Source: Stieleria maiorica (GTDB lineage: Bacteria; Planctomycetota; Planctomycetia; Pirellulales; Pirellulaceae). Taken from it: a DNA stretch of 64,000 nucleotides. Both the position numbers and the translations under genes were made by a program. The stretch's first letter is position 1; each line of letters begins with the position of its first letter. The DNA lies in assembly GCF_008035925.1 (NCBI RefSeq), contig NZ_CP036264.1, positions 7,473,641 through 7,537,640 on the forward strand. The letters run 5' to 3'. The notes under the pieces are model-generated. The model saw only the letters and a list, made by a program, of their open reading frames with translations, was not told the origin of the DNA and did not search any database. Of the stretch, positions 38,722-53,872 are shown one piece after another.

Positions 38722-40071
38722 CTACCCTGGCGCGCCGATCGGCAGCGCTACCGTAAACACCGTGCCTTGGTCACCGGTCTGGAAATCGATGCTACCGTCG
38801 TGTTGGCGAATGATTTTGTCGCACAGGGCCAGCCCCATTCCGGTGCCTTCGCTGCGGGTGGTGAAGTAGGGGTCGTAGACCTGGGATTGAATCTCGGCGG
38901 GAATCCCCGCTCCCGTGTCGCTGACCGCGATCGTCACGCTGCCGTCGCCTCCGCGGACGTCAAATCGCAGCGTTCCACCGTCGGGCATCGCTGCCAGGGC
39001 ATTGATCGCAAGGTTCAAAAAAACCTGTTCCAGGCGGCTCGAATCGGCTTGGATCATGCTGATCATTTCCGCGGGCGGATCGACGACCAATTTGACGTTT
39101 TGATGTTCGGCTTGGGGACGTAGCAATCGCGCCAGCTTTTCAATCAAGAACACCACATCCACCGGGGCGCGTCCGAGTTCGGCGACGGAGGCGTAGCTGC
39201 GAAAGCCGTCCAAGACGTCGTTGATGCGTCGGACTTCGGTGTTCAAGATATCCAGCAGTTCGGCAACCTCTTGATCGTCGCTTTCATGGTCCAGTCGTTC
39301 GCACAACAGTTGGATGTGCAGCGATAGGGCGCTGAGCGGATTTTTGATCTCGTGTTGCAATCCGGCCGCAAGTGACCCGAGCCCCATGTAGCGTTCCATC
39401 CGTCGCAGGCGTTCCTCCATCAGCGTTTTTTCGGTGACGTCGCGGAGGTGGATGACCATGCCGATTTGGTCATTGTGTCGGTTGTGCAGCATGGTGCCCC
39501 CGGCGCGCAGCGTGGCCTGATGACCGTTTCGGGTGACGCAATAATCACGGTCTCGGATCGGATGATGATAGGTCGTGATCTCCGTGCAAATCGCATCCAA
39601 GAGGGCGTGTTGGGGGCCGATTTCGGACAGCCGGGTGCCGACGCCGTCGCCGTCCAACCCGATCAGCTCTCGGCCGCTGGGATTGGTGCTGGTGATGACG
39701 GCGTTCTTGTCGGTGGTGATCACGCCGACGTCCATGCTGGCCAAGATGTCCGCCGAGAGAACGCGCACGTCTTTGAGTGTCCGTTCGCTGCTCAGGTAAC
39801 CACGTACGACCAAGGCGAACGCGATGGCGGTGGCAATGATGTTCAGGACCAACAGAATCGACAGCCCGCTCTGCAGACTTAAATCACCGGAGAGTTCCTT
39901 GGCCACTTGCAAGTCGCTCTCGGGCAAATGCTGAATCAGCCGCGCCACGATCTCCTGTTCGCGGCGAACGTTGGACAGGATCCAGGCGGTGACGGAGACG
40001 GCGACCAGGCTGAGCAGCGCCAGACCGAATGCGAAGCGACGAACCCCTCGTCCGTCATGGGAATCAAACAT
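38722..40071 (-). CDS. Membrane sensor histidine kinase with PAS domain
   Basis: 449 residues. Two membrane helices (about 12-34 and 68-93) flank a short extracytoplasmic loop. A PAS domain follows (about 105-215), then the dimerisation/phosphoacceptor helix with LQHEIKNPLSALSLH (His240), and the ATPase domain with NLAINALAAM (N box), DTGAGIP (G1) and GTGMGLAL (G2). The style is NtrB-like. No response regulator is encoded beside it, so it is an orphan kinase; a link to the carbon-uptake locus 80 bp away is possible but not shown. Confidence 0.92.
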   Translation of the reverse strand: MFDSHDGRGVRRFAFGLALLSLVAVSVTAWILSNVRREQEIVARLIQHLPESDLQVAKELSGDLSLQSGLSILLVLNIIATAIAFALVVRGYLSSERTLKDVRVLSADILASMDVGVITTDKNAVITSTNPSGRELIGLDGDGVGTRLSEIGPQHALLDAICTEITTYHHPIRDRDYCVTRNGHQATLRAGGTMLHNRHNDQIGMVIHLRDVTEKTLMEERLRRMERYMGLGSLAAGLQHEIKNPLSALSLHIQLLCERLDHESDDQEVAELLDILNTEVRRINDVLDGFRSYASVAELGRAPVDVVFLIEKLARLLRPQAEHQNVKLVVDPPAEMISMIQADSSRLEQVFLNLAINALAAMPDGGTLRFDVRGGDGSVTIAVSDTGAGIPAEIQSQVYDPYFTTRSEGTGMGLALCDKIIRQHDGSIDFQTGDQGTVFTVALPIGAPG

Positions 40072-40149: not shown

Positions 40150-40791
40150 TCATGGGATCCGTTTCTTCGGGGCGATTTTTTCGATCGTCACGAATTGGTG
40201 TGCCAGCGGGGCATAGGCCAACACCCGCGCCGATCGATCGTCCACGACCCAGCCGTGCAAGCGGAGTTGCCCGGCAGCCAGTCGATTGCGGACAAACGGA
40301 TGCGATCTCAAGTTTTCGATTTGGAAAAGCGTGTGCTCACAAATCATCAACGTTTGCCGCTCACTTTCGGTCGTGTAGTGATAGAAGTGATCCACCACCC
40401 GACGTGCGTTGGCCGTGAATCGGCACCCCGGATCACAGTCGCCATGAAGAATCGGGTTTTTCATCCAGTATCTCACCACCCGACAGCAGAGGTGGCTACA
40501 GACGATCACTTCGCGTACCTGCTGTCGAACAATCGCATACTCGATGCCAGCCACGGTCGAATCATAGGGCTGGTCCGGGCGCGGGATGGAGGCCGCCAGA
40601 TTCTGCACGACGGCACACTGGCCGGGTTCGGCGAACGACAGCATGTCGGGAGCAAGGCCGTGGTCGGCGCACCCGACGATCAGAATTCCCGCTGGTGACG
40701 TTCGTGCCGACTCACGTAAATCTGCCAAAGTACCAAATTCATCGGACGCGAATCGGTGGAGATGTTTCTTCAACTGGATGCGACGATGCAT
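40150..40791 (-). CDS. Beta-carbonic-anhydrase-like protein without the catalytic Arg
   Basis: 213 residues of the beta-carbonic anhydrase fold. Zinc ligands are conserved: Cys41 (GCADHG), His100 and Cys103 (CSHLCC, the HxxC motif). Asp43 is present, but the Arg that normally pairs with it (CxDxR) is Gly45. The C-terminal LHGWVVDDRSARVLAY matches the family. It may be a slow or altered CO2 hydratase, or a zinc-binding sensor. It diverges from dabA across a region with four palindromic operators, which ties it to inorganic carbon handling. Confidence 0.8.
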   Translation of the reverse strand: MHRRIQLKKHLHRFASDEFGTLADLRESARTSPAGILIVGCADHGLAPDMLSFAEPGQCAVVQNLAASIPRPDQPYDSTVAGIEYAIVRQQVREVIVCSHLCCRVVRYWMKNPILHGDCDPGCRFTANARRVVDHFYHYTTESERQTLMICEHTLFQIENLRSHPFVRNRLAAGQLRLHGWVVDDRSARVLAYAPLAHQFVTIEKIAPKKRIP

Positions 40792-40909
40792 GGTCCGTCT
40801 CGGGATATCGGTCTGTCATGGTCCGCAAGATCGAGTGTCGCATACGACATGCCAAAGCGTTCACAAGGGGCAATCGACGAGTGTCCCGTCCCAGGGCGGC
40901 CGAGCGTGA

Positions 40910-40923
40910 TGCAATTTGATGCA
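40910..40923. promoter_or_regulatory. Operator-like palindrome 1 (TGCAA-N4-TTGCA type)
   Basis: TGCAATTTGATGCA: one mismatch in the right half-site. Its centre is 19 bp from site 2. Confidence 0.65.
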
Positions 40924-40928
40924 CCTGC

Positions 40929-40942
40929 TGCAAAACGTTGCA
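40929..40942. promoter_or_regulatory. Operator-like palindrome 2
   Basis: TGCAAAACGTTGCA: perfect TGCAA/TTGCA half-sites with 4-bp spacer. Forms a pair with site 1. Confidence 0.75.
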
Positions 40943-40979
40943 GACCGAGAGGTTTCGCTGGTGCCGGTCGTGCACCCCG

Positions 40980-40993
40980 TGCAATACGTTGCA
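40980..40993. promoter_or_regulatory. Operator-like palindrome 3
   Basis: TGCAATACGTTGCA: perfect half-sites. Its centre is 51 bp from site 2 and 20 bp from site 4. Confidence 0.75.
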
Positions 40994-40999
40994 CTTCGA

Positions 41000-41013
41000 T
41001 GCAATGGGTTGCA
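41000..41013. promoter_or_regulatory. Operator-like palindrome 4
   Basis: TGCAATGGGTTGCA: perfect half-sites. With site 3 it repeats the spacing of sites 1-2 about 70 bp away. Confidence 0.75.
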
Positions 41014-41069
41014 CCTGCCCGACTTTGATGCGGTGGGAGCCGCGGTTTTCGCCGCGGATTGCCCCAGAA

Positions 41070-41075
41070 TACAAT
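41070..41075 (+). promoter_or_regulatory. Possible -10 element for dabA
   Basis: TACAAT just downstream of the operator array and of a CGCGG/CCGCG hairpin (41041-41056). No good -35 is visible at 16-18 bp, as would fit an activated promoter. Inference only. Confidence 0.35.
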
Positions 41076-41240
41076 TTCTTTTCGCGCGCGATGACGTTCC
41101 ATTTGCCGGCAATTCGTGGGATTCTCGGGTGAAGCGGTGTGCGTGTCGCGGCAGTCAGGGGCGAATTGGTACGGCCTGTGCTGGGCGGAGGACCCAGTGA
41201 ACCAGTCGCGATTGTTTTCGCCCGCATCCGCCCTCGACTC

Positions 41241-44200
41241 ATGCAAGACGCGCCCTCCTCCACATCGACATCCCCGACTCGAGGGTTGGTTCATGTTGGC
41301 GTGTCCGATCAATCCGACTTGCAAGCGGCGATCGAACGCGCGACGCATTTCTTGCCGTCCCAAGGACCGATTTCCATTTTCGTTCACCACAACACGCTGC
41401 ACTCGTTTGAGGACCTGCCGTTTGAGCAAGCCGTGATCGAAGGGGGACGGCGCTATGGTTGCCAGCCGTATTGGTCCGAACAGCGATACCGCAGCGAACT
41501 GGCCCGTGGACGGATTACGGTCGATGATCTGCGTCAGGTTTTGATGGACGATCTGGGAGAGGAAGCCGATGAGTTGATCGCCAGCTTTGGCACTCGCTAC
41601 ACCCTGCGGCTGGCGATGCTTCAAATGACCCTGCATTCGGCCCCCGATGCGGAGCTGAAATGGCTGTTGGCCGAGTCGGATCTGCTGTCACGGTTTCGCA
41701 CGGAGGTCTCATCGGTGCGGGCCGAACAAATGGTGGGAAAGACCCGCAGCTGGGTGATGCGGCATCGCGACCTTTCCGGCCCCGTTGCGGCGCGGCGGTC
41801 TGACAATCCCACCCGCGACACTCAAACGCCCCTGCCCGAGCTCGTGCTGTCGGCGATCGACGCTTCGAGTGGCAAATCGATTCACTCCTGGTCAGATACC
41901 AGGTGGGAAGCGTTCACGCTGAAACTACTTTGGAAAGTCTCACGACGGGGCGTCGAATCGGCGCGGCTGCCCAAGAGCGAACGACGCGACCCGATTCGGT
42001 TGCGAGACTTGTTGTTGAAGGTGACCGGCGAAGACATCGACGTGACCGTCAATGAGGTGTTGATCCGGTTTTGCGGTGCCTTTCTCGACCAAGGATTTTC
42101 CGATTGGGCACTGCCCGCCCGTGAGTTGGGATTCGCCCGATCGTTCGCGACGTTGTTTCAAGGGACCGCCGCGGTGATCCCGCATTGGATGAAGGGGCTT
42201 GGCGAAGAAATCAACGCGATTCGGGTCGGACCGTTTGATGCCCTCCAATCGATTCGCCAGTCGCTTGATGTCTTGGGGATCAGCGGCGATGAAGTCGAGG
42301 AGAAACTGACTTCGACGCTGCTGGCGCTTCGCGGCTGGGCCGGAATGATCTGGCAAATGGAAACCAACACGCCTTTCCTGCAACAGCCGATTCCTCCCGG
42401 GACGCTCCACGAGTATCTGGCGATTCGGTTGTTGTTGGAACGTCACGCGATCGCCGAATTCGGCCAGCGGCATTACGGGACACGTGACTACCGACAAATA
42501 CGTCGGGCCGCCGAACACCGTCGCGAAATCGAACAAGGGCCATCGACCGACGAGCGGACCTACACGATCTTTCAACTCGCCCAGGCCGGAGGATGGACAC
42601 CCGAACAATTGGTCGCGATGACGCCCGAGCAATGGGCCTGCCTGATTCGCGAAATCGAATCGTTCGATTCGATCCATCGGCGCCGTGTTCTGCATGCTGC
42701 CTATGAACGGCACTATCGGATCGCGACGCTCGATGCCATCGCCGCCCACTCGGCGCGTCGGCGAGAGCAACGCCAGGATGCGAGCGACGCCCCACCGGCC
42801 TTTGCGGCGATCTTCTGTATTGATGATCGCGAAGAATCGTTCCGGCGGCATCTCGAAGAGGTCGCCCCACAGTGCCGGACCGCTTCGGCAGCCGGTTTTT
42901 TTGCCGTCGCGATGTACTATCAAGGTGCCGACCACGCCCACTTTCGCGCCCTGTGTCCGGGGATCGTGACGCCCCAACATTACGTCCGCGAAGAGCCGCT
43001 TTTTTCTGCCATCCAGGTCGGCCAGAAACGGGCCCAGCGACGTCGACGGATCGGCTGGTTCACCCATCAGATCCACACGCATTCGCGAACGATGATCGGT
43101 GGCTGGGTCACGGGCATCTTCGGGGCGCTGGCGACGTTCCCGATGGTCGCACGCATCCTGGCGCCGCGGCTGACGTCAAAGATTCGTCAAACGATGGGCT
43201 CGTTCGTCAAACCGCCCGCGACCGAATTGCATTTGGAACGGATCGCGGCCTCACCAGGGCCGGATCCGGACGCGCTGGGATACAGCTTGGAGGAAATGGC
43301 CGGGATCGTCTTGCAGATCCTGCAGGACATCGGGATGGTCGACCACTTTCCGTCGATCATCGTGTTCTTTGGTCACGGCAGCGGCAGTCTGAATAATCCC
43401 CATGAATCGGCGTACAACTGCGGTGCATGCAGCGGAGGGCGTGGCGGTCCGAACGCGCGTGCGTTCGCGATGATGGCCAACGATTCCCGCGTCCGTCGGT
43501 TGGTCGCGAAGCACGGGGTGGAACTGCCCGAAGACGTCCGTTTTATCGGGGCGTATCACAACACCTGCAACGACGACGTCGAATACTACGACCTGGATCT
43601 GTTGCCGCGGACTCACCGCCCGCTGTTCCGACGGATCGAGAATTGTGTCAACCAAACGCGGGCCCGCAACGCCCACGAACGCGCCCGACGGTTCGAATCG
43701 GCCCCGCTGGATCTGACACCCCAGGAGGCGTTGGAGCATGTCGAAGAGCGCGCCGAGGACCTCTCGCAGGCGCGTCCGGAATACAACCATGCGACCAACG
43801 CGGTCGTGACCGTCGGACGCCGCGACTGGACCCGCGGTTTGTTCATGGACCGGCGCGTGTTCTTGACGGAATACGATCCGGCGGTCGATGACGACGACGT
43901 CACGGTGTTGTCGCGGATCCTTCGCGCCGCCATCCCGGTTTGTGCCGGCATCAGTTTGGAATACTACTTTTCCACCGTCGATGTCGAAGGCTATGGCTGC
44001 GGATCCAAGCTGCCACACAACGTCGCATCGATGATCGGGGTGATGACCGGCGCCGCCAGCGACCTCCGTCCGGGGTTGTCGCAACAGATGGTCGAAATCC
44101 ACGAGCCGATGCGGATTCTGTTCGTGATCGAAACCACTCCGGAAAAGATGGACAAGATCATCGACGAAAACCCGGGGATCCGGCGATTGGTCCGCGGCAA

Positions 44201-44378
44201 CTGGGTGCAGGTCGCCCTGATCGACCCGGCAACGTCGACGATCCTGCGTTATGTCGACGGCCGCTATCAACGTCACGTCCCGGAATCGACGGAGTTGCCC
44301 GTGGTGGCGTCGTCGATCGATTGGTACCGCGGCCGACGTGACCACTTGGGATACGCATCGATTGAAACCGGATCCTAA
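41241..44378 (+). CDS. dabA: DabA (DUF2309), inorganic carbon capture subunit
   Basis: Cytoplasmic zinc subunit of the DAB complex, which couples an ion gradient to conversion of CO2 to bicarbonate. The zinc site of DabA is fully present: Cys526 and Asp528 in [10 protein letters not shown], His712 in FFGHGSGS and Cys727 in AYNCGAC. The His-to-Cys spacing of 15 equals that of Halothiobacillus DabA2 (H524/C539). The protein has about 1045 residues, against about 830 there; the extra length is mostly in the N-terminal half. ATG 41241 is the first ATG before conserved sequence; an in-frame GTG at 41139 is possible and no Shine-Dalgarno decides. The stop overlaps the dabB start (TAATG). Confidence 0.93.
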
Positions 44379-45799
44379 TGCCTCATCACGCCGACTTGCC
44401 TGCCATGAACCCTCTCGAAGTCCTTTTCCAATTCCTCGGCACGACCGTGTTGGCCAGCCCGGCTGTGTTGCTGGCGGTCCTCGGTTTGTCTTCGTTGATC
44501 AATCGTCCGCTCAGCGAATCGACGATCGCTCGATTGACGCAAGGGGCCGTGTTGTGTTCCTTGCTGCCGGCGATCGTGATTCTGGCGATCATGCTGGGCA
44601 CCGGAATTCGTCATGTTCCGATTGAACTTGGGAACTGGGTGATGCTGCCGGAGGAGCAGTTTCATTTTCATTTGAAATTCGTTTTTGACAGGCTGAGCAT
44701 CCCGTTCTTGATGTTGTCCTGTGTGTTGTGCGGGGTGGTGGGGGCGTTCACGCGGCGTTACTTGCACCGCGAAGAAGGCTATGGAAGATTCTTTCTGTAC
44801 TACGCCATGTTCTTTTGTGGCATGGTTTTGTCATCACTTGCCAGCACGATCGAAGCGTTGTTCGTCGGCTGGGAAATGGTCGGTCTCTCGTCGGCATTGC
44901 TGGTGGCCTATTTCCACGACCGGACCAATCCGGTTCGCAACGGGCAACGTGTTTGGTCCATTTATCGGCTTAGCGACGCGGCGTTTTTGATCGCCGCGAT
45001 CACGATGCACCACTTGACCGGACGAGGCGACTTTGGCGGGTTGATGAGCAGCGGGATCTGGCCCGAGGGGACCGCCGCGATAACGTCCAGCCAGGCGTTG
45101 ATGGTCGGTTCGTTGTTGCTGGTTGCCGCCGCCGGCAAATCGGCGTTGTTTCCCTTTAGCGGTTGGCTGCCGCGGGCGATGGAAGGCCCCACGCCGTCGA
45201 GTGCCATTTTTTACGGCGCGCTGTCGGTCCACCTGGGCGCCTTCCTGTTGTTGCGGCTGAGTCCGATCATCGAGGCCTCGCTGACCCTGCGATTGATGGT
45301 CATAACGTTGGGGATCGTCTCGGCGGTTTGCGGCGGCATCATGTCGCGGGTCCAGAACGATGTGAAAGTCTCGCTCGCCTATGCCTCGCTGACCCAGGTC
45401 GGAATCATCGTCGTGGAGATCGGCTTGGGGATGAAGTATCTGGCCCTGATTCACATCATGGGGCATGCCAGTCTGCGAACGATGCAGTTGCTTCGCGCCC
45501 CGACGCTGCTGAGGGACTACAGCGACTTGGAAAACAAAATCGGCACGCGTTTGCCGCGTGATTCGTGGGTCGGCGCAAGCTTCTTGCCGCCGCGAGCCCA
45601 GCGATGGTGCTATCGGTTCGGATTCGAACGAGGCTTCATGGACATCGCGTTGGACAAATGGGTCGTGCAACCCTTTGTGCGTTTTTTCCGCTGGTGCGAT
45701 GCGGTCGAGCGACGGGCCACCGATGCGCTGTCCAACGAGGCGTCGCGTGAATCGGACCAAGCCGAATTGCATCCCGAAGATTTTAAATCCGCAGCCTAA
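44378..45799 (+). CDS. dabB: DabB1, NuoL-like proton-conducting subunit
   Basis: Membrane partner of DabA from the Na+/H+ antiporter-like (proton_antipo_M) family, 473 residues with about 12 helices. [18 protein letters not shown] contains the key Glu of helix 5; [31 protein letters not shown] contains the Lys of helix 7 and the NuoL-family PTPxSA motif. It would supply ion-driven energy to DabA. Its ATG overlaps the dabA stop (TAATG), indicating coupled translation. No other complex I gene is nearby, which argues against a Nuo or Mrp function. Confidence 0.92.
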
Positions 45800-45834
45800 A
45801 TGCTTTGTCCAGATTAAGAATCGTGGTCCTAGCC

Positions 45835-45902
45835 GTAACGGAAATCGCCAAGACTTTCGGCGGTTCGTGCAGCGGGCCGAAACTCTTGGCGAGTTCCGCT
45901 AC
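45835..45902. repeat. Family C 68-bp hairpin repeat, intact
   Basis: Arms of 27 bp (45835-45861 and 45876-45902) match in reverse complement except at three positions, with a 14-nt centre. It lies in the 144-bp gap between the two antiporter-like subunits and could partly separate their transcripts or protect the mRNA. Confidence 0.88.
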
Positions 45903-45943
45903 CTCAATACAGAATTCGACCATACACAAACGTTTTCACAACC

Positions 45944-47410
45944 ATGTCTGAACTTCATTTCCCCTGGATCGAGATCTCCATCCTGGTTCCCTTATTGGGT
46001 ACCGTTTGGATCCAGTTGCTCGGCGACCGAGAGAACATTTTGCGGCACGCGATCGCGATTTGTTCGTTGACGCTGGTGTTGACGATCGGCGAACTGATCG
46101 ACTTTGTTTCGATCGGCTCCTTCGAAGCCCACGACCACTGGCTGTTGCTGGACTGGCTGTTCCATCGAGACGTTTTTGTCGTGGACGAACTGAGCGCATT
46201 CCAATTGCCGCTGGTCGCGTTGATCTTTCTGGTCACTGTGATGTCGACGCTTCGCACCAAGGCGCCACGTTTTTCGTTGAAACTGACACTGATCTCCGAA
46301 TGCCTGATGCTGGCGACGTTCAGCTGTCGCAGTTCGTGGATGTTGATCGCATTGCTGATCGCATCGACAGTCCCTCCTTACCTGGAACTGCGGAAACGCA
46401 AGCGGTGCACACGAATCTATGTGCTGCACATGGCCATCTCCGCTGCACTGCTGCCGGTCGGTTACGGATGGTTGAGTGCGGTCGACCAGACTAGTTCGGC
46501 GATCTTGATTCCCGGCGCGCTGTTAACGGTGGCGGCGTTGATTCGCAGCGGGATTTTTCCCTTTCATCTGTGGATGACCGATCTGTTCGAAAAAGCGACC
46601 TTCGGGACCGCGATTCTGTTTTCCACGCCGCTGGTGGGGGCGTATGCCGTGATGCGGTTGGTGTTGCCGATCGCTCCGTCCTGGGCGCTTCAGAGTATTG
46701 CGGTGCTTTCATTGGTGACGGCCGTCTATGCCGGATCGATGGCGCTGATCCAACGCGAAGCGCGGCGAATGTTCTGTTTCTTGTTTCTCAGCCAGTCCGC
46801 CCTCGTGCTGGCCGGGCTGGAGCTGGTCACACCGATCGGGCTGACCGGCGCGCTGTGCCTGTGGTTATCCGTCGGGCTCTCGCTGACCGGTTTCGGGATC
46901 ACGCTTCGCTGTATCGAAGCGCGGATCTCGCGCGTCGCACTGGCCGACTATCACGGCTTGTACCGCCAGATGCCGATGTTGGCCGGATTCTTTTTGCTGA
47001 CCGGGCTGGCGGCGATCGGATTCCCCGCGACGGTCGGATTCGTCGGCATGGAATTACTGATCGAAGGGGCCGTGGATGTTTATCCCTTCGTCGGGACGAT
47101 GGTGGTGATCGCTGCGGCGCTGTGCGGGATCACCGTGCTGTCGGCCTACTTTCGGATCTTCACCGGACACCCCACACGCACCGTGGTCCCGATGCACGCG
47201 CGACCCGCCGAACGAATCGCCGTGCTGATGTTGACCTTGTTGATTCTGGGCGGCGGTTTGGTGCCGCAACCCGGCGTCGCGTCACGTTATCACGCCGCAA
47301 AAGAATTGACGCGGCTACGTCAATCGTATCCCGGCAACGCCGACGGAAACGTTGCCGCGGAAAAGGGGGCAGGTACGAATGGCACGGGCTTAGTGAGCCG
47401 ACGGCGCTAG
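45944..47410 (+). CDS. DabB2, NuoM-like antiporter-type subunit
   Basis: 488 residues with about 13-14 membrane helices, a second proton_antipo_M-type protein. The landmark FPFHLWMTDLFEKATFGTAILFSTPLVGAYAVMRL matches the helix 7-8 region of NuoM/NuoN proteins. The Glu of helix 5 is less clear than in the previous gene (RSSWMLIALLIAS replaces the WEMVGL motif), so one half-channel may be altered. Its position after dabB suggests it extends the DAB ion channel. The last 12 residues (GTNGTGLVSRRR) are encoded by a family D inverted repeat that also provides the stop codon. Confidence 0.85.
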   Translation: MSELHFPWIEISILVPLLGTVWIQLLGDRENILRHAIAICSLTLVLTIGELIDFVSIGSFEAHDHWLLLDWLFHRDVFVVDELSAFQLPLVALIFLVTVMSTLRTKAPRFSLKLTLISECLMLATFSCRSSWMLIALLIASTVPPYLELRKRKRCTRIYVLHMAISAALLPVGYGWLSAVDQTSSAILIPGALLTVAALIRSGIFPFHLWMTDLFEKATFGTAILFSTPLVGAYAVMRLVLPIAPSWALQSIAVLSLVTAVYAGSMALIQREARRMFCFLFLSQSALVLAGLELVTPIGLTGALCLWLSVGLSLTGFGITLRCIEARISRVALADYHGLYRQMPMLAGFFLLTGLAAIGFPATVGFVGMELLIEGAVDVYPFVGTMVVIAAALCGITVLSAYFRIFTGHPTRTVVPMHARPAERIAVLMLTLLILGGGLVPQPGVASRYHAAKELTRLRQSYPGNADGNVAAEKGAGTNGTGLVSRRR

Positions 47411-47499
47411 CCGCGGGCCTTGATCCGCCTTTCACACGGCGGTAAGGCCCGAGGCTAGCGCCTACGGCTCAGCGTATTGGCTTATGCCCGTGCCATTCG
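47376..47499. repeat. Family D long inverted repeat overlapping the dabB2 3' end
   Basis: Outer 14-bp perfect arms CGAATGGCACGGGC (47376-47389) and its complement (47486-47499). Inner arms of about 35 bp (47393-47429 and 47438-47472) contain GGCGCTAGCC and GGCTAGCGCC. The centre is CTTTCACA. The left arm is coding for the last residues of the upstream gene. Confidence 0.88.
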
Positions 47500-47500
47500 T

Positions 47501-47563
47501 GTCAGCTGCCTTCGCCGGAACGTGGTTGCCCGGCGCCTCCCACGCTCTGGCGAGCGTGGCTAC
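47501..47563. repeat. Family F inverted repeat, second full copy
   Basis: GTCAGCTGCCTTCGCCGGAA and TCTGGCGAGCGTGGCTAC arms, like 7773-7834, directly adjoining family D. Confidence 0.7.
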
Positions 47564-47632
47564 TGAAAAGCGGAGTCTGACATCGCATGACAACCATTCG
47601 AGACAATTTGAAAACCAACGCATCGTAATCCC

Positions 47633-49663
47633 ATGAGTTCCCCCATCATCAACCCCGGCGACGTCCCACGTGGAAATCTGCAGGGCTTTACCCGTTACTT
47701 CAAGCACGACTTCATTTCGGGACTGCTCGTCTTCCTGATCGCACTGCCCTTGTGCTTGGGCATTTCCATCGCCAGCGGCTATCCGCCGATCGCCGGCATT
47801 TTCACCGCCATCATCGGATCGGTCGTGGCGACGCTGATGAGCAATTCGGAGCTGACGATCAAGGGTCCCGCAGCCGGATTGATCGTGATCGCGATCGGTT
47901 GCATCGGTGCATTCGGCGGCGACGGAATGGTCGGCGGCTGGAGCGAAGCGGACCAGGCGGCCTATCGGGCGGCATTGGCCGTGGGAGTCGCCGCGGCGGT
48001 GCTGCAAGTCTTCTTCGGCATCTTTCGCGCCGGCATCTTGGGCGAGTTCTTTCCGATTTCCGCCGTCCACGGCATGTTGGCGGCGATCGGCGTGATCATC
48101 ATTGCCAAGCAGATTCCGGTGGCACTGGGCGTGAGTGCATCCGGGGGGCCGCTGGAACTGATCCAGCAAATTCCCCACTTCATCGCGGCGGCCAATCCCG
48201 CGATCGCGGCGATCGGACTGACCAGCGTGTTGATCATGTTCCTTTGGCCGATCGTCGGCAACAAGTTGCCGATGCTGAAGGTCTTGCCCTCACCCTTGAT
48301 CGTGCTGGTCGCGGCGATCCCGATGGGGATGGTGTTTGATCTGATGCACGAACATTCCTACACGTTGCAAAACCACGAGTACCAGTTGGGCGAGAACTAT
48401 TTGGTCGCGATGCCCGAGCGCGTCTTTGGCATGTTCGACTCACTGACCACGCCGGACTTTTCGGCGCTGCAACAACCCGTCGCTTGGAAATGGGTGTTCA
48501 TGTTCTTCATCATCGGCAGCCTGGAATCATTGCTCAGCGCCAAGGCGGTGGATCTGATCGACCCCTGGCGGCGCAAGACGAACATGGACCGCGACATGGT
48601 TGCGGTCGGCGCCGGGAATTTGTGTTGTGCGTTGGTCGGCGGATTGCCGATGATATCCGAAATCGTGCGGAGCAAGGCGAACATCGACAACGGTGCCCGC
48701 ACGCGATTTGCCGACTTGTGGCACGGGATGTTTTTGTTGGTCTGTGTCGCGTTTATCCCGATGGTGTTGCACCGCATTCCGATGGCCGCGTTGGCGGCGA
48801 TGCTGATCTACACCGGTTTTCGTTTGGCACACCCCACGGAGTTCTTCAACGTTTGGAAAATCGGCCGCGAGCAATTGGTGATTTTCGTCGTCACGTTGAT
48901 CGCGGTGTTGGCCACCGACCTGTTGATCGGGATCGCGATCGGCATTGCCACCAAAGTGGTGATCCACCTGTCCAACGGCGTGCCGCTGCGATCACTGTTC
49001 AAACCCGAGATCGAGGTCAGCAGCGACGACGGGCGGACGGTACGATTGACGGCGTACAAGTCGGCGGTGTTCAGCAACTGGATTCCGATTCGCCGCCAGA
49101 TCGAGCGCGTCGGATTGCTGCAAGACAAGAACGTCGAACTGGATCTGGCAGAAGTCGAGTTGGTCGATCACACGGTGATGGACAAGCTGCACGAGATGGA
49201 AAACGATTTCCAGCAACAGGGACTTCAATTCACCGCGCTAGGACTTGAGTCGCATCAACCGTTTGCCGACCACGCCCAGAGCGCGCGTCGAAAGGGCCTT
49301 TGCACGGTCCAACGGTTGACCATCATGACCGATCCGGAATTGGAAGAAGAGTTGGAAAATGCGATCGTCGCTTTGGGGGCCAGCGGCTATACATCAACGC
49401 CCTGCCGGGGCCTGGGGCGGCGTGGGATCACCAATGAATTTCGTACCCCGCGGGCCCAAGTGCGGATCGAAGTGATCGGCACCAAAGGAATTTGCGATTC
49501 TGTGGTCGATTATCTGCGCCGCGACGCCCAGACCCAACACCCGCTGGTGTTCACGGTCGAAGAAGTCCGGGTGGCTCGGTTGGATGCCTTCGCGCCCGTC
49601 CCCGGTTCGAATCAGCCTGCGGTGGATCAGGAGGAGGAACACCTGGACCCGGTCGGCCATTGA
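47633..49663 (+). CDS. SulP transporter fused to STAS and PII-like domains
   Basis: 676 residues in three parts. SulP membrane domain (about 25-445) with [22 protein letters not shown] and the helix 8 region [12 protein letters not shown], as in BicA/SLC26 bicarbonate or sulfate transporters. STAS domain (about 465-555; [19 protein letters not shown]). C-terminal PII-like domain (about 560-650): [33 protein letters not shown] and a beta-rich end, resembling the carboxysome-associated and SbtB-like PII proteins. Those are normally separate proteins that gate bicarbonate transporters, so the fusion is probably a self-regulated importer. It follows the dab genes on the same strand after two inverted repeats. 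Confidence 0.88.
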
Positions 49664-49725
49664 GCGTGTTGCGTCCCAATGCAGTGCATCGGATCGGGCA
49701 TTGGATGAGTGGGTAGGAAAATTTT

Positions 49726-49784
49726 GGAGGTAAGAAAATTGGATGCTGGACGGATGAAGTCGTCCGTCGAATCTTCTTACCTCC
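49726..49784. terminator. Bidirectional hairpin between the SulP and SpoIIAA-like genes
   Basis: Outer stem GGAGGTAAGAA/TTCTTACCTCC with an inner GGACG/CGTCC stem, placed between convergent genes. There is no long T-run, so the terminator role is inferred from position. Confidence 0.6.
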
Positions 49785-49809
49785 CCGATCTTCTTACCCT
49801 AATCCCGCG

Positions 49810-50187
49810 TCAATCCTCGTCCACCCAGTCCCAGGCCGCGTCGATTTCGCTGGCGTCGAAGTACTTGACTTTGGCGGCGGTGAACGGCGAGCAGAAAATC
49901 GCCATCCACTTTTCCCAGGCTTTGTCGCCGACCATGGCGATCCGCTCGATGTCGCGGAAGTGCTGGATGTCAAACTTGATGTCGTCCCACAGCGCCCGGG
50001 CGGTCCAGCCGTGGAAATCATCCAGTTCCAGCAGGACACGGATCTTTCCGTGTTTCTGAATCAACTGTTCGATGTCGGGCCCGAAGATCTCGTAATCCTC
50101 GTGGTTCATGGTGCCGCTGACATGCAGGTGAATCACGTTGCTATCGGCTCGAGTCGCTAAATCGACTTCACTGAATCGAACACCCAT
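49810..50187 (-). CDS. SpoIIAA-like (STAS/SEC14-type) protein
   Basis: 125-residue soluble protein of the SpoIIAA-like family (DUF3478 type). Landmarks are VIHLHVSGTMNHEDYEIFGP, VLLELDDFHGWTARALWDDIKFD and RIAMVGDKAWEKWMAIFC. Members fold like STAS domains and are proposed to bind lipids or act in membrane-linked signalling. It is convergent with the SulP-STAS-PII gene; a functional link is possible only by proximity. ATG 50187 gives the standard length. Confidence 0.88.
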   Translation of the reverse strand: MGVRFSEVDLATRADSNVIHLHVSGTMNHEDYEIFGPDIEQLIQKHGKIRVLLELDDFHGWTARALWDDIKFDIQHFRDIERIAMVGDKAWEKWMAIFCSPFTAAKVKYFDASEIDAAWDWVDED

Positions 50188-50434
50188 CTATCGGCCCTTT
50201 TTTAGAAGAGAAGAAAAAGAACGAATGCCCCCAAGTCTAGCGGGTGCGGCGGTGGAACGCAAAATTCTGCGGTGAGTCGCGATTTGATCGAGGTGAAGCG
50301 TTTCGATCGGCCGGACTTGGTGCCGTGTGACGGGGAGGGAGCGAAAGAAGGCTGTGAGCTTTTCGATGATTGAAGCCGGTTTTCGGGTATACTGATGACG
50401 CCCTCCGCCCCCCAAATCGTTGCTCCCCCCTTCC

Positions 50435-53400
50435 ATGCGATTTACCAGCTTTCTCTCTCTTGCCTCGGTCGTCATTCTCTTATCGCTCATCGCACCAACC
50501 GGTGTGACAGCCGACGAACCGCCGGTCGATTTCAACCGCGACATTCGGCCGCTGTTGTTCAGCCGTTGTGTGACGTGCCATGGCCCCGATGAAGCCGAAA
50601 GGGCGGCGGGGCTACGGTTGGATACCGCCGAAGGGGCTCACGGTGACCTGGGCGGTTACGCGGCGGTCGTCCCCGGTGACACCGACGCGAGCGAGTTGAT
50701 TTTGCGGGTCACCAGTGATGATCCGGACATGGTGATGCCGCCACCGGGCAAGGGGGATCCGCTCAAGCCCGCTGAAATCGCGTTGCTGCGTCGGTGGATC
50801 GATCAGGGCGGTCAGTATGCGAAACATTGGTCCTACGAGGCCCCCGTTCGGCCACCGCTGCCGACTGTATCCGATCCGTCGTGGCCGGCCGGGCCGATCG
50901 ACCATTTCACGCTCGCTCGGATGGAGGCCGAAGGATTGCACCCTTCACCGCCAGCCGACCGTTTGACGTTGGCCCGGCGGGCGGCGATCGACTTGACCGG
51001 TTTGCCGCCGACTTGGGATCAAGCCAAGGCGTTTGCCGAGGACGGTCGAGCCGATGCGTACGAGGTCTACGTGGATGCGTTGCTCGCCAGCCCCGCCTTC
51101 GGCGAACGCTGGGCGCGAGTCTGGCTGGACCTGGCCCGCTATGCCGATTCGGCCGGCTACGCCGACGACCCGCCCCGCACCATCTGGGCCTATCGCGACT
51201 ATGTGATTCGCGCGATCAACGACAACATGCCCTTCGATCAATTCACGATCGAACAAATCGCCGGTGACTTGCTGCCCAGCCCGACCGACCAGCAATTGAT
51301 CGCCACGGCCTTTCATCGCAACACGCTAACCAACAACGAAGGCGGCACGAACGACGAGGAGTTCCGCAACGTCGCGGTTGTCGATCGGGTCAACACGACG
51401 ATGGCGGTTTGGATGGGCACCACGATGGCCTGCGCCCAATGTCACACCCACAAATATGACCCGATCACCCAAGACGAATACTTTCAATTCTTCGCCTTCT
51501 TCAACAGCACCGAGGACGCCGACAAGCGAAACGAAAGCCCGCTGTTTGAAGTTTGGAGCGACGAGCAAAAACGCCGCAAAGCAGAATTGGCCGAACGGAT
51601 CGAAACGCTCCAAGCCGAATTGGCCGCTCCCTCCGACCTGGTCGACCGACAACGCGACCAATGGCTGGCCGAGTTCTCCTCGCCGCCGGATTGGCATCCC
51701 GCCGACGTCACTGCCATCGAATCCCAACGCTCATTGAAGTTGACTGAAGACGGGTGGATCAAGGCCGACGAAGACGAACTGGAAAATGCCACTTACCAAA
51801 TCGAGATCTCCACCTCGAATCAACCGGTGACGGGTATCCGATTGGATACATCCGCGTCGCAAGAACGCAACTTCGTGATCTCCAATTTTCACGCGACCTG
51901 GTCACCCCAAAAGCCTTCCCCGGTCCGAGCCCGATTTGTTCGTGTCGATCTGCCGGGGAAGTCACGCTTCTTGCACCTAGCCGAAATCGAAGTGTTCAGC
52001 GGCGGGACGAACATCGCAACACGCGGCAAGGCCCGTCAAAGTTCGACTTATGCCGACGCGGTCGCCGCACGAGTCAACGATGGCAATACCGCGGGGGATT
52101 ACCACCAGGGTTCGGTGCAACACACGGGCGGGGAAAGCGACCCTTGGGTTGAAATTGATTTGGGCGCGGTGATGCCGATCGACAATCTTGTGGTTTGGAA
52201 TCGGACCGATGGCGGAACGGGAATCGTCGAACGTCTGAACGGATTCAAGGTGTCGTTGTTGGACGAAGAACGCAACGTGGCCTGGACACAACAACCCGAA
52301 GGACCTGCGCAAACGAAACACGCCCTTTCACCTAGCGGGGTGCGTGCGGTTACGTTCCGCCATGCGTCGGCCGATCATGAACAAAACGGTTTCCCCGCAA
52401 CGGCGGTCTTGCAATCGCAAGCGGATCCAAAGACGGGGTGGGCCGTTGCGCCACAGGTCGGCCGCCCCCATCAGTTGACGCTCGCGCTCGGTTCACCGAC
52501 ACCGGCGTCCGAGGGTGTGCTGACGGTCTCGATCGCCCAAGAATCCGTGCATCCACGTCATCTGCTGGATCATTTCCGATTGTCCGTCAGTTTCGACGCG
52601 AACCTGACCCGGTGGGCGACCTTGCCGGTTGCGATCCGCCAGATCGTGGCGAAGACGAAGGACGACTGGAGTGAGCAAGAAGCGAAACGGATCGAGGACT
52701 ACTTTCGCTCGATCGCCCCGGCGCTCAAACCCCAGCGTGACCAGCTTCAATCGGCACGCGATGAACTGGCAAGAATGAAACCGATGACCAGTGTCCCGGT
52801 GATGAAACAGTTGCCCGCTGAAAACCGTCGCGTCACCAATGTGCAGTTGCGCGGGAACTATCAAAGCACAGGCGATGTGGTCAGCGAGGGCACGCCGCAG
52901 GCCTTTCACCGGATCGACAACGCCGACAACCCCAACCGTCTGGATCTGGCGCGTTGGCTGGTCGATCCGGCCAACCCGCTCACCCCGCGGGTGATCGTCA
53001 ATCGACACTGGGAACAATTGTTCGGGATCGGGATCGTGGAAACGAGCGAAGAATTCGGGTCGCAGGGTGAATTGCCCTCTCACCCCAAGTTGCTCGATTG
53101 GATGGCGGTCGAGTTTCGTGAAAGCGGATGGGACGTCAAACGGTTGATCAAGTCGATCGTGATGTCATCGACCTATCGTCAAAGCAGTGTGGCGACGCCG
53201 CGAGCCATTGCGGACGATCCCAGCAATCGGTTGCTCGCACGCGGCCCCCGATTCCGCGTCTCGGCGGAAATGGTGCGTGACCAGGCATTGTTCGTCAGTG
53301 GCTTGTTGAGCGACAAACGCTTCGGCCCGCCGGTCAAACCGCCGCAACCCGAGTTGGGATTAAAAGCCGCCTTCGGGTCGGCGACCGACTGGAAAACCAG

Positions 53401-53872
53401 CCAGGGCGAAGACCGATATCGGCGCGGGCTGTACACGACGTGGCGACGCAGCAGTCCGTACCCGTCGATGGCACAGTTCGACGCGCCCAACCGGGAAGTT
53501 TGCACGGTGCGTCGGATTCGCACCAACACCCCGCTTCAAGCGTTGGTGACGCTGAACGATCCCGTCTATGTCGAAGCGGCTCAGTCGTTTGCCAGAAACA
53601 TGATCCACGCCGCAGACTCGCACGAAGGCCGGCTGGATTACGCCTTTCGCACCGCGTTGACCCGTCCGCCGACCAATGCCGAGACCGAGCGACTGAAACA
53701 ACTCGTGTCCGCCGCGACCGAAACGTATCGCCAGTCGATCGACGACGCGATGCAGATGGCCACCGATCCGCTGGGGGATTTGCCCGAGGGCGCCGACCCG
53801 GCCGAGTATGCGGCCTGGACCGTGGTCGCCAATGTGATTTTGAATTTGGATGAATTGTTGATGAAACGTTAA
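50435..53872 (+). CDS. Secreted PSCyt1-PSCyt2-PSD1 cytochrome with discoidin-like domain
   Basis: 1145 residues with a signal peptide ([20 protein letters not shown]). Same layout as the gene at 3306: PSCyt1 heme motif CVTCH (45-49), DUF1549 with [14 protein letters not shown] and a second CAQCH (333-337), and DUF1553 ([18 protein letters not shown]) to the end. Here the variable middle (about 430-640) is a beta-sandwich like F5/8 type C (discoidin) carbohydrate-binding domains ([32 protein letters not shown]). A helical segment (about 700-770) precedes PSD1. ATG 50435 starts the signal peptide. Its DUF1501 partner follows. Confidence 0.92.

Follow-up and report, generated by a model that had tools for sequence, protein, structure and literature searches.

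A cross-phylum class of DAB-type loci with two antiporter-like subunits and a PII-tagged SulP protein: a possible second way of coupling ion flow to CO2 hydration

What does a DAB-type inorganic carbon locus do in a planctomycete whose genome contains no RuBisCO match, and does it couple ion flow to CO2 chemistry in the manner described for DAB2, the DabA2-DabB2 complex of Halothiobacillus neapolitanus (9rd0)? The question is raised by a stretch of 64,000 nucleotides from Stieleria maiorica (positions 7473641-7537640 of the single 9.89-Mb contig NZ_CP036264.1; hereafter the window). Here, four genes follow one another on the plus strand from 41241 to 49663: dabA, two genes for antiporter-like membrane proteins (antiL and antiM), and a SulP gene with a C-terminal PII-like domain. 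An initial annotation, made from the letters alone, had described the row, together with a neighbouring gene resembling beta-carbonic anhydrases (CAs), as an established DAB system with a non-standard gene set; the genes it named all lie where it had placed them. The members of the row, in window coordinates, are as follows.

41241-44378, plus strand: dabA of class C, encoding a beta-CA-like, predicted cytoplasmic subunit of 1045 amino acids (PF10070, 769 bits; DabA2 of the PDB, 9rd0_A, E=2.9e-60)
44378-45799, plus strand: antiL, NuoL-like, 473 amino acids (PF00361 match)
45944-47410, plus strand: antiM, NuoM-like, 488 amino acids (PF00361 match)
47633-49663, plus strand: SulP protein with a STAS-like stretch and a PII-like domain (PF00916, 199.6 bits; PF00543, 45.2 bits)

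The gene set is not a stray arrangement, nor is it non-standard for its kind; it is the standard of a large class that crosses phylum boundaries, here called class C, and its neighbourhood has been in print since 2017 (PMC5700660, accessible text). Relatives were collected by scanning species-named genomes with nine long DabA sequences, that of L104 first (L, G and C numbers are our handles for loci, genomes and contigs), and the best 80 of at least 585 were kept; hence, the sample is biased toward L104-like sequences. The locus recurs among these far above chance: antiL lies 3' of dabA in 70 of the 72 loci with enough sequence, and antiM in 61 of 63, so the check for neighbourhood conservation that had been proposed came out positive. 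The two exceptions (L141, L146) are metagenome-assembled genomes (MAGs) of Schlesneria; both retain an intact antiL-antiM pair elsewhere, with no dabA in the 12 kb read around the pair. According to the record titles, from which the phyla were taken, the trio is present in five phyla: Planctomycetota, Verrucomicrobiota (Prosthecobacter and others), Acidobacteria, Myxococcota (Sorangium cellulosum) and, in a MAG, Armatimonadota. In S. cellulosum So0157-2, antiL and antiM form one open reading frame (ORF) of 1105 amino acids with two PF00361 stretches (L138:12014-15331).

At the family level, 36 of 60 genomes have a PF10070 match (68 of 294 genomes searched at the phylum level), and these fall chiefly into two kinds: a short kind in the order dabB-dabA, and the long, class-C kind in the order dabA-antiL-antiM, found in 29 of the 60. 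L060 and L061 match neither kind well and were placed with the short one; a few genomes have fragments only. In a DabA tree of 61 rows (quick method, midpoint root), the short and long kinds split with full SH-aLRT support, and two very long L117 branches are placed uncertainly. S. maiorica possesses both kinds, since a second dabA of the classical short kind, with dabB upstream, is located at 69157-71478. Two side observations concern the reading frames themselves. In one MAG, a class-C dabA (L109/L197; G104:C143:28528-31422) is split by a stop into two frames, which could be sequencing error or decay. Furthermore, DabA matches occur within open frames of 1363-1519 amino acids (G335:C15, G311:C124, G339:C218/C171, G291:C398); these are possibly DabB-DabA fusions, or just long open frames.

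The DabA subunit of this class combines a conserved zinc site with altered surroundings. All residue counts below refer to 80 class-C sequences (the window and 79 of the 80 loci; the split L197 was left out), and the sites in question map to the window as follows.

42816-42830, plus strand: CIDDR motif, residues 526-530, with zinc ligand Cys526 and the Asp528-Arg530 dyad (by alignment to DAB2)
43089-43163, plus strand: finger hairpin segment, residues 617-641, free of acidic residues; the region of DAB2 Glu444
43374-43421, plus strand: zinc ligand His712 through zinc ligand Cys727 (by alignment to DAB2; 80/80)
43788-43790, plus strand: His850 at the DAB2 Leu658 (transition-state) site

Residues C526, D528, R530, H712 and C727 correspond to C351, D353, R355, H524 and C539 of DAB2, and both the zinc ligands and the Asp-Arg dyad are invariant (80/80), in agreement with the complete zinc site first read from the sequence. 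The enlarged-pocket Ala376 site is kept in 76 of the 80, and the H and D of the DAB2 H585 and D590 sites in 69 each. The finger is different. No class-C sequence has an acid at the Glu444 site (0/80), neither by pairwise alignment, where Glu444 falls on Ala629, nor by multiple alignment, where it falls three residues ahead of an invariant Gly; the 24-column finger core is entirely free of acids in 78/80, while L128 and L154 have one elsewhere in the core. In an earlier sample, an acid stood at the finger end in 3 of 46 long-kind sequences, and in the core of all 15 other planctomycete DabA. The finger Glu is likewise present in 6/6 two-gene systems from plasmids. The accessible text of the 2026 DAB2 structure paper reports that DAB2 is inactive in vivo without Glu444 (PMC13144422).

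At the Leu658 site, class C has His (76/80) or Asn (4/80), and the short kind Leu (12/12). The same source, as far as its text is accessible, describes Leu658 as strictly conserved across 150 DabA2 homologues and notes Gln or His at this site in beta-CAs; it also reports that Leu658 substitutions are harmless to DAB2 in vivo and that Leu658Gln shows no free activity in vitro (PMC13144422). Because of these mutant phenotypes, the change to His or Asn predicts little on its own. The N-terminal part of class-C DabA is about 150 amino acids longer (class median) than that of short planctomycete DabA. Length was nevertheless dropped as a mark of the class, since the DabA of L114 and L115 are equally long yet possess the finger Glu and Leu658. 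At these two loci (L115:3760-11607, L114:5521-11609), a dabB of about 860-880 amino acids precedes a dabA of about 1090; the dabB of L115 has two PF00361 stretches, and the SulP upstream of it matches our PII profile, with the P-II domain uncalled by Pfam.

The membrane partners differ from those of the two-gene systems as well (antiL counts: the window and 72 loci; antiM counts: the window and 67 loci). AntiL retains Glu166 in transmembrane helix (TM) 5, Arg197, Asp200, Lys254, Lys330, His359 and His363; the equivalents of NuoL TM5 Glu144, Arg175, Asp178, Lys229, the second Lys and two His are present in 73/73, and the TM11 Lys of DabB and NuoL is replaced by Arg (Arg367 here) in 73/73. In six plasmid-borne two-gene systems (Nocardia, Mesorhizobium, Pantoea, Paracoccus, Haloarcula, Azospirillum) and four short planctomycete loci, DabB shows the opposite pattern: it lacks the TM5 Glu and has the TM11 Lys. 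AntiL also ends early and lacks TM12-15. Hydropathy gives no TM beyond residue 361, and the AlphaFold2 model (pLDDT 88, 48 sequences), which resembles NuoL most closely (TMq 0.70), shows nothing past residue 388 but a helical tail (405-452). From the TM11 Lys/Arg point to the end of the protein, five class-C sequences have 100-140 residues, against 179-205 in two-gene or short DabB.

For antiM, in turn, the model (pLDDT 90, 40 sequences) shows the whole NuoM fold, with a TMq of about 0.8 to NuoM, NdhD and MrpD. Its residues are placed by reference to four sites of NuoM: the Glu of TM5, the Lys of TM7, the Lys of TM8 and the Glu of TM12. Glu370 (codon 47051-47053) lies in the broken helix TM12, whose second half carries an acid in 65 of 68 sequences (two gaps, one Gly). 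The TM7 Lys is an Arg in 67/68, and the TM5 Glu and TM8 Lys are missing. With antiL lacking TM12-15 and antiM lacking the TM5 Glu and TM8 Lys, the halves that have decayed in the two subunits are roughly complementary. Residues essential in DAB2 are absent, so that class C cannot simply be equated with the established DAB complexes, as had been done. One small group with the class-C residues departs from this pairing. Family f37 (L117, G148:C1:1177785-1183419; G183:C75; G306:C173; G096:C6), from 3-5 Mb genomes of the same phylum, can have two neighbouring dabA genes in divergent orientation, each of which in L117 is accompanied by its own longer-tailed NuoL-like gene. Given the class-C residues of L117 beside two NuoL-like partners, the residue set suggests a tie to two membrane partners rather than to NuoM as such.

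The fourth gene combines transport and signalling families. The SulP-STAS-PII fusion of the initial annotation holds for its SulP and PII parts; STAS is not called by Pfam, and the STAS-like stretch is supported only by its inclusion in alignments to SulP models and to an SLC26-type structure. Among PDB entries, 6ki1, a BicA structure, matches the membrane part best. The tail has a Pfam match of its own.

49310-49582, plus strand: PII-like domain, SulP residues 560-650 (PF00543, 45.2 bits against a cut-off of 25; nearest solved sequence TTHA0516, 2cz4)

Counting a SulP gene as adjacent when it starts no more than 4.5 kb after dabA or ends no more than 1.8 kb before it, we found one at 25 of the 39 loci that have enough sequence on either side among the best 80 relatives: 14 downstream and 12 upstream, with one locus counted twice (opposite strand in 3/12 upstream and 1/14 downstream cases). 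Rough arithmetic (3 SulP genes, 12 kb, 9.9 Mb) gives a chance adjacency of about 0.4%; the three SulP genes are those of S. maiorica, where one frame contains two PF00916 stretches, making four stretches in all. Ten of the 39 loci carry the PII fusion. A profile of the PII tail built from 13 sequences and run on the 60 family genomes found the fusion in 18 of them (frames of 667-726 amino acids, two with a stop inside the match): 17 of the 29 genomes with long dabA against 1 of the 31 others (Fisher p=2e-6, uncorrected for kinship). The single other genome, G052, has a partial second dabA, and none of the 24 genomes without PF10070 has the fusion. It stands beside dabA in 14 of the 18; in G010 it shares a contig with dabA at a distance of about 62 kb, and in the fragmented assemblies of G059, G014 and G052 the two lie on different contigs. 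These data support the earlier view that the DAB genes and SulP(-PII) behave as one unit. At the long-kind loci L037, L038 and L039, SulP is without PII. Other combinations were also seen: the SulP of one class-C locus (L059:3179-5389) is fused to a beta-CA-like domain, and in S. maiorica itself PF00916 and PF00484 matches stand side by side in 778-amino-acid frames (G000:C1:9735132-9737312).

How might such a system work? The reading that we favour, with a confidence that is evenly balanced, is a one-way hydration of CO2 driven by an ion-motive force, in which antiL and antiM each provide part of the channel and the PII-tagged SulP assists. DabA, by homology a zinc subunit with CO2 chemistry, would sit on a two-part antiL-antiM membrane module, through which an inward ion-motive force (most likely of protons) would drive the conversion of CO2 to bicarbonate in the cytoplasm. 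AntiL would supply the inner half-channel and the central Lys/His axis. The outer half-channel is assigned to antiM, with its conserved TM12 acid, because the DabA finger is free of acids and antiL lacks TM12-15. SulP may be a co-selected anion transporter, probably for bicarbonate, whose PII-like tail would gate it according to the carbon or energy state of the cell. In a cell without RuBisCO, the bicarbonate could be a substrate for ordinary carboxylases and a means of retaining respired CO2. What the data show directly is which genes are present, how far they are conserved, their residue patterns and the modelled folds of antiL and antiM. Complex formation, the split channel, the ion, its direction, the SulP substrate and the PII gating are all inferred from the patterns above, and so is the cotranscription of the four genes. 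The broader proposal, that class C represents a second coupling architecture with a path split between half-NuoL-like and NuoM-like subunits, no finger acid, a His of the beta-CA type and a PII-tagged SulP under metabolic control, is more tentative, and we hold it with some doubt.

Several points weigh against these interpretations. AntiM, without the TM5 Glu and TM8 Lys, may not conduct at all, and the models are of single chains, so that a contact between its acid and the finger is conjectural. In L117, where the dabA pair has the class-C residues, no NuoM-like gene was seen. As the distinguishing sites separate two clades, a single ancient transition could account for all of them; they set the class apart without demonstrating coupling at each site, and their co-occurrence would be no independent proof of it. 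With regard to SulP, 14 of the 39 assessable loci have none beside the trio, the protein scores 123 bits against the 880-bit cut-off of the NCBIfam equivalog for BicA, and the T-loop region of PII is variable across 13 homologues. The first two genes of the row overlap by 1 base, the following gaps measure 144 and 222 bases, and these gaps, above all the one ahead of the SulP gene, leave a single four-gene transcript in doubt. The need for a class-C system is unclear in a genome equipped with a classical DAB as well and, besides the window gene, with three PF00484 matches. Finally, no experimentally tested class-C member was found in the open-access literature searched.

The doubt about antiM leads to an alternative, which we consider unlikely, in which hydration is DAB-like, conduction is confined to antiL, and antiM stands in structurally for TM12-15 with no proton path of its own. 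The inner channel set, complete in every antiL, and the replaced or missing lysines and Glu of antiM fit such a division of labour. Yet antiM has kept a complete fold and, nearly throughout, its TM12 acid, and DAB2 requires an acid in the outer half-channel (PMC13144422, accessible text), which neither the class-C finger nor an antiL without those helices provides. Somewhat less probable again is a coupling in the pumping sense or to sodium, where CO2 hydration or bicarbonate movement would be linked to outward H+ or Na+ flow for pH or Na+ homeostasis. In its favour, the regulatory Glu144/Arg175 ion pair of complex I is intact in antiL, while two-gene DabB has lost the Glu of that pair, and MrpD is among the good fold matches of antiM; the accessible parts of two papers contain a related proposal for MpsAB (PMC6689103) and the neighbourhood-based guess of 2017 (PMC5700660). 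Against this, CO2 hydration should yield little free energy for pumping, and the best-studied homologue, DAB2, appears to be proton-driven and sodium-independent according to the accessible text on it (PMC13144422).

Two further explanations fare worse. That DabA is a freely active CA docked to the antiporter pair, serving pH/CO2 homeostasis in a non-vectorial manner, would suit the His found in most class-C sequences at a site where beta-CAs have Gln or His; we regard it as very improbable, given that DAB2 Leu658Gln is without free CA activity (both PMC13144422, accessible text) and that the enlarged-pocket Ala376 is largely kept. A carbon-concentrating mechanism feeding RuBisCO draws on the observation, in the accessible text of PMC10880623, that autotrophs are particularly rich in DAC and SulP genes, but it is scarcely credible here. 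Across the whole 9.89-Mb genome, there are no PF00016 matches (carboxysome genes were not searched for), which extends to the chromosome what had been stated of the window and supports the view that this DAB-type locus belongs to a species with no RuBisCO match. PF00016 is found in 6 of the 60 family genomes and, among the 29 with class C, in one (G044, a partial match). A RuBisCO-linked mechanism is therefore ruled out for this genome; other carbon-fixation cycles lie outside this comparison. The reading adopted here is the divided antiL-antiM channel.

On the 5' side of the row, two genes lie on the opposite strand.

40150-40791, minus strand: divergent beta-CA-like ORF, a divergently oriented neighbour (PF00484, 74.5 bits)
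38722-40071, minus strand: AtoS/NtrB-like histidine kinase, a possible regulator

The beta-CA-like ORF had been counted as part of the locus. Its zinc Cys/His/Cys ligands are present by alignment (C41 and an HxxC motif), and so is Asp43, but Gly45 stands at the site of the catalytic Arg, so that CxDxR reads CADHG. This Arg is missing in 5/5 divergent homologues (the window; L179 of strain TBK1r; L148; L100; L048). The best solved relative is 5swc, a cyanobacterial CA, and of the four PF00484 matches in the genome, that of the window gene scores lowest (75 bits against 131-165 for the other three). As a conserved member of the locus it was rejected: a CA-profile match within 7.5 kb occurs in 8/80 loci (some weak, at 33-37 bits), and the divergent type in just 2/80. 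Canonical CAs with CSDSR are found near other class-C loci (L043, L051, L101, L102, L112, L178). The ORF is oriented away from dabA, with the kinase next on its own strand; its protein is probably outside the complex and may be a pseudo-enzyme or a sensor.

Homologues of the kinase gene lie upstream of class-C dab genes in L036:4891-7646, L049:2226-5026 and L046:5044-7835, where they adjoin a gene for a sigma-54 response regulator with overlapping reading frames; the window kinase has no such adjacent gene. The occurrence of kinase and regulator near class-C dab in these relatives suggests two-component control of the locus. On the 3' side, a SpoIIAA-like gene (PF11964; 49810-50187, minus strand) is convergent with the SulP gene and has a homologue at just one other compared locus, L043; planctomycete-type genes with PSCyt1/PSCyt2/PSD1 domains follow at 50420-53872. 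The window gave no matches to Rfam and none in a tRNA scan. A promoter scan was dropped as evidence (2 matches against 3.8 in shuffles), and terminator-like sites were not used (26 against 13.9 in shuffles, many of them intragenic).

If the proposed split path is correct, class C would be a natural swap experiment that tells which DAB parts couple ion flow to catalysis. A large class in five phyla, including isolated planctomycetes and Sorangium, has the zinc chemistry without the DAB2 coupling parts and with a second antiporter subunit, and it makes the coupling model directly testable. It also widens DAB biology among organisms without RuBisCO, offers in the SulP with a built-in PII-like domain a candidate for a regulated bicarbonate transporter, and cautions against labelling every PF10070 locus a DAB2-like transporter.

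How does class C compare with known systems? It shares with DAB2 the DabA family, the zinc ligands, the Asp-Arg dyad, the Ala376 site and a NuoL-like partner. It differs in having dabA first, no finger Glu444, His at the Leu658 site, a partner with the TM5 Glu and without TM12-15, an extra NuoM-like subunit and a SulP-PII partner. In the accessible text of the structure paper, the coupling of DAB2 is linked to the finger Glu444 and a rearranged DabB, the finger Glu and TM12-13 of DabB forming the probable outer half-channel (PMC13144422). The closest precedent for the neighbourhood is clade C of COG3002 in the COGNAT study of 2017, where ybcC (DUF2309; dabA) lies upstream of nuoL, often with sulfate permease (COG0659) and NuoM (COG1008) genes nearby; it is probably the same class. 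That account, in its accessible parts, leaves the function unassigned, suggests that several ions could be moved in each turnover where several membrane subunits are present, and contains no comparison of channel residues, no PII fusion and no idea of a split channel (PMC5700660). The neighbourhood has thus been known since 2017; what is apparently new is its interpretation as a separate class of DAB, along with the residue pattern and the fused SulP-PII protein, as no description of the pattern, the split channel or the fusion was found in the open-access literature (most subscription papers and bioRxiv lay outside the search).

DAB1 of H. neapolitanus, compared by gene order alone, likewise has a DUF2309 protein of 1046 amino acids and a PII/SbtB homologue in one row, but its order is nuoL, membrane protein, dabA, PII, and it is linked to alpha-carboxysomes (PMC4633670, accessible text); here the order is reversed, the PII part is fused to SulP, and there is no RuBisCO. 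MpsAB of Staphylococcus aureus also pairs PF10070 with PF00361 in a non-autotroph and supports growth in air, but it consists of two genes and was proposed to be a Na+/bicarbonate cotransporter (PMC6689103, accessible text). SulP shares family membership with BicA-type transporters and differs from them in its PII-like C-terminal domain and in a score far below the BicA cut-off. Lastly, the combination of CO2 hydration with antiporter subunits of the complex I type recalls NDH-1MS, which uses CupA with NdhD3/NdhF3. AntiL fails the criterion for a CO2-type NdhF3 (107.9 bits against the 588.7 cut-off of ndhF3_CO2), and NDH-1MS is ferredoxin-driven, whereas the CO2 subunit here is DabA; antiM, however, resembles the NdhD-type chain of that complex (6tjv_D, TMq 0.79).

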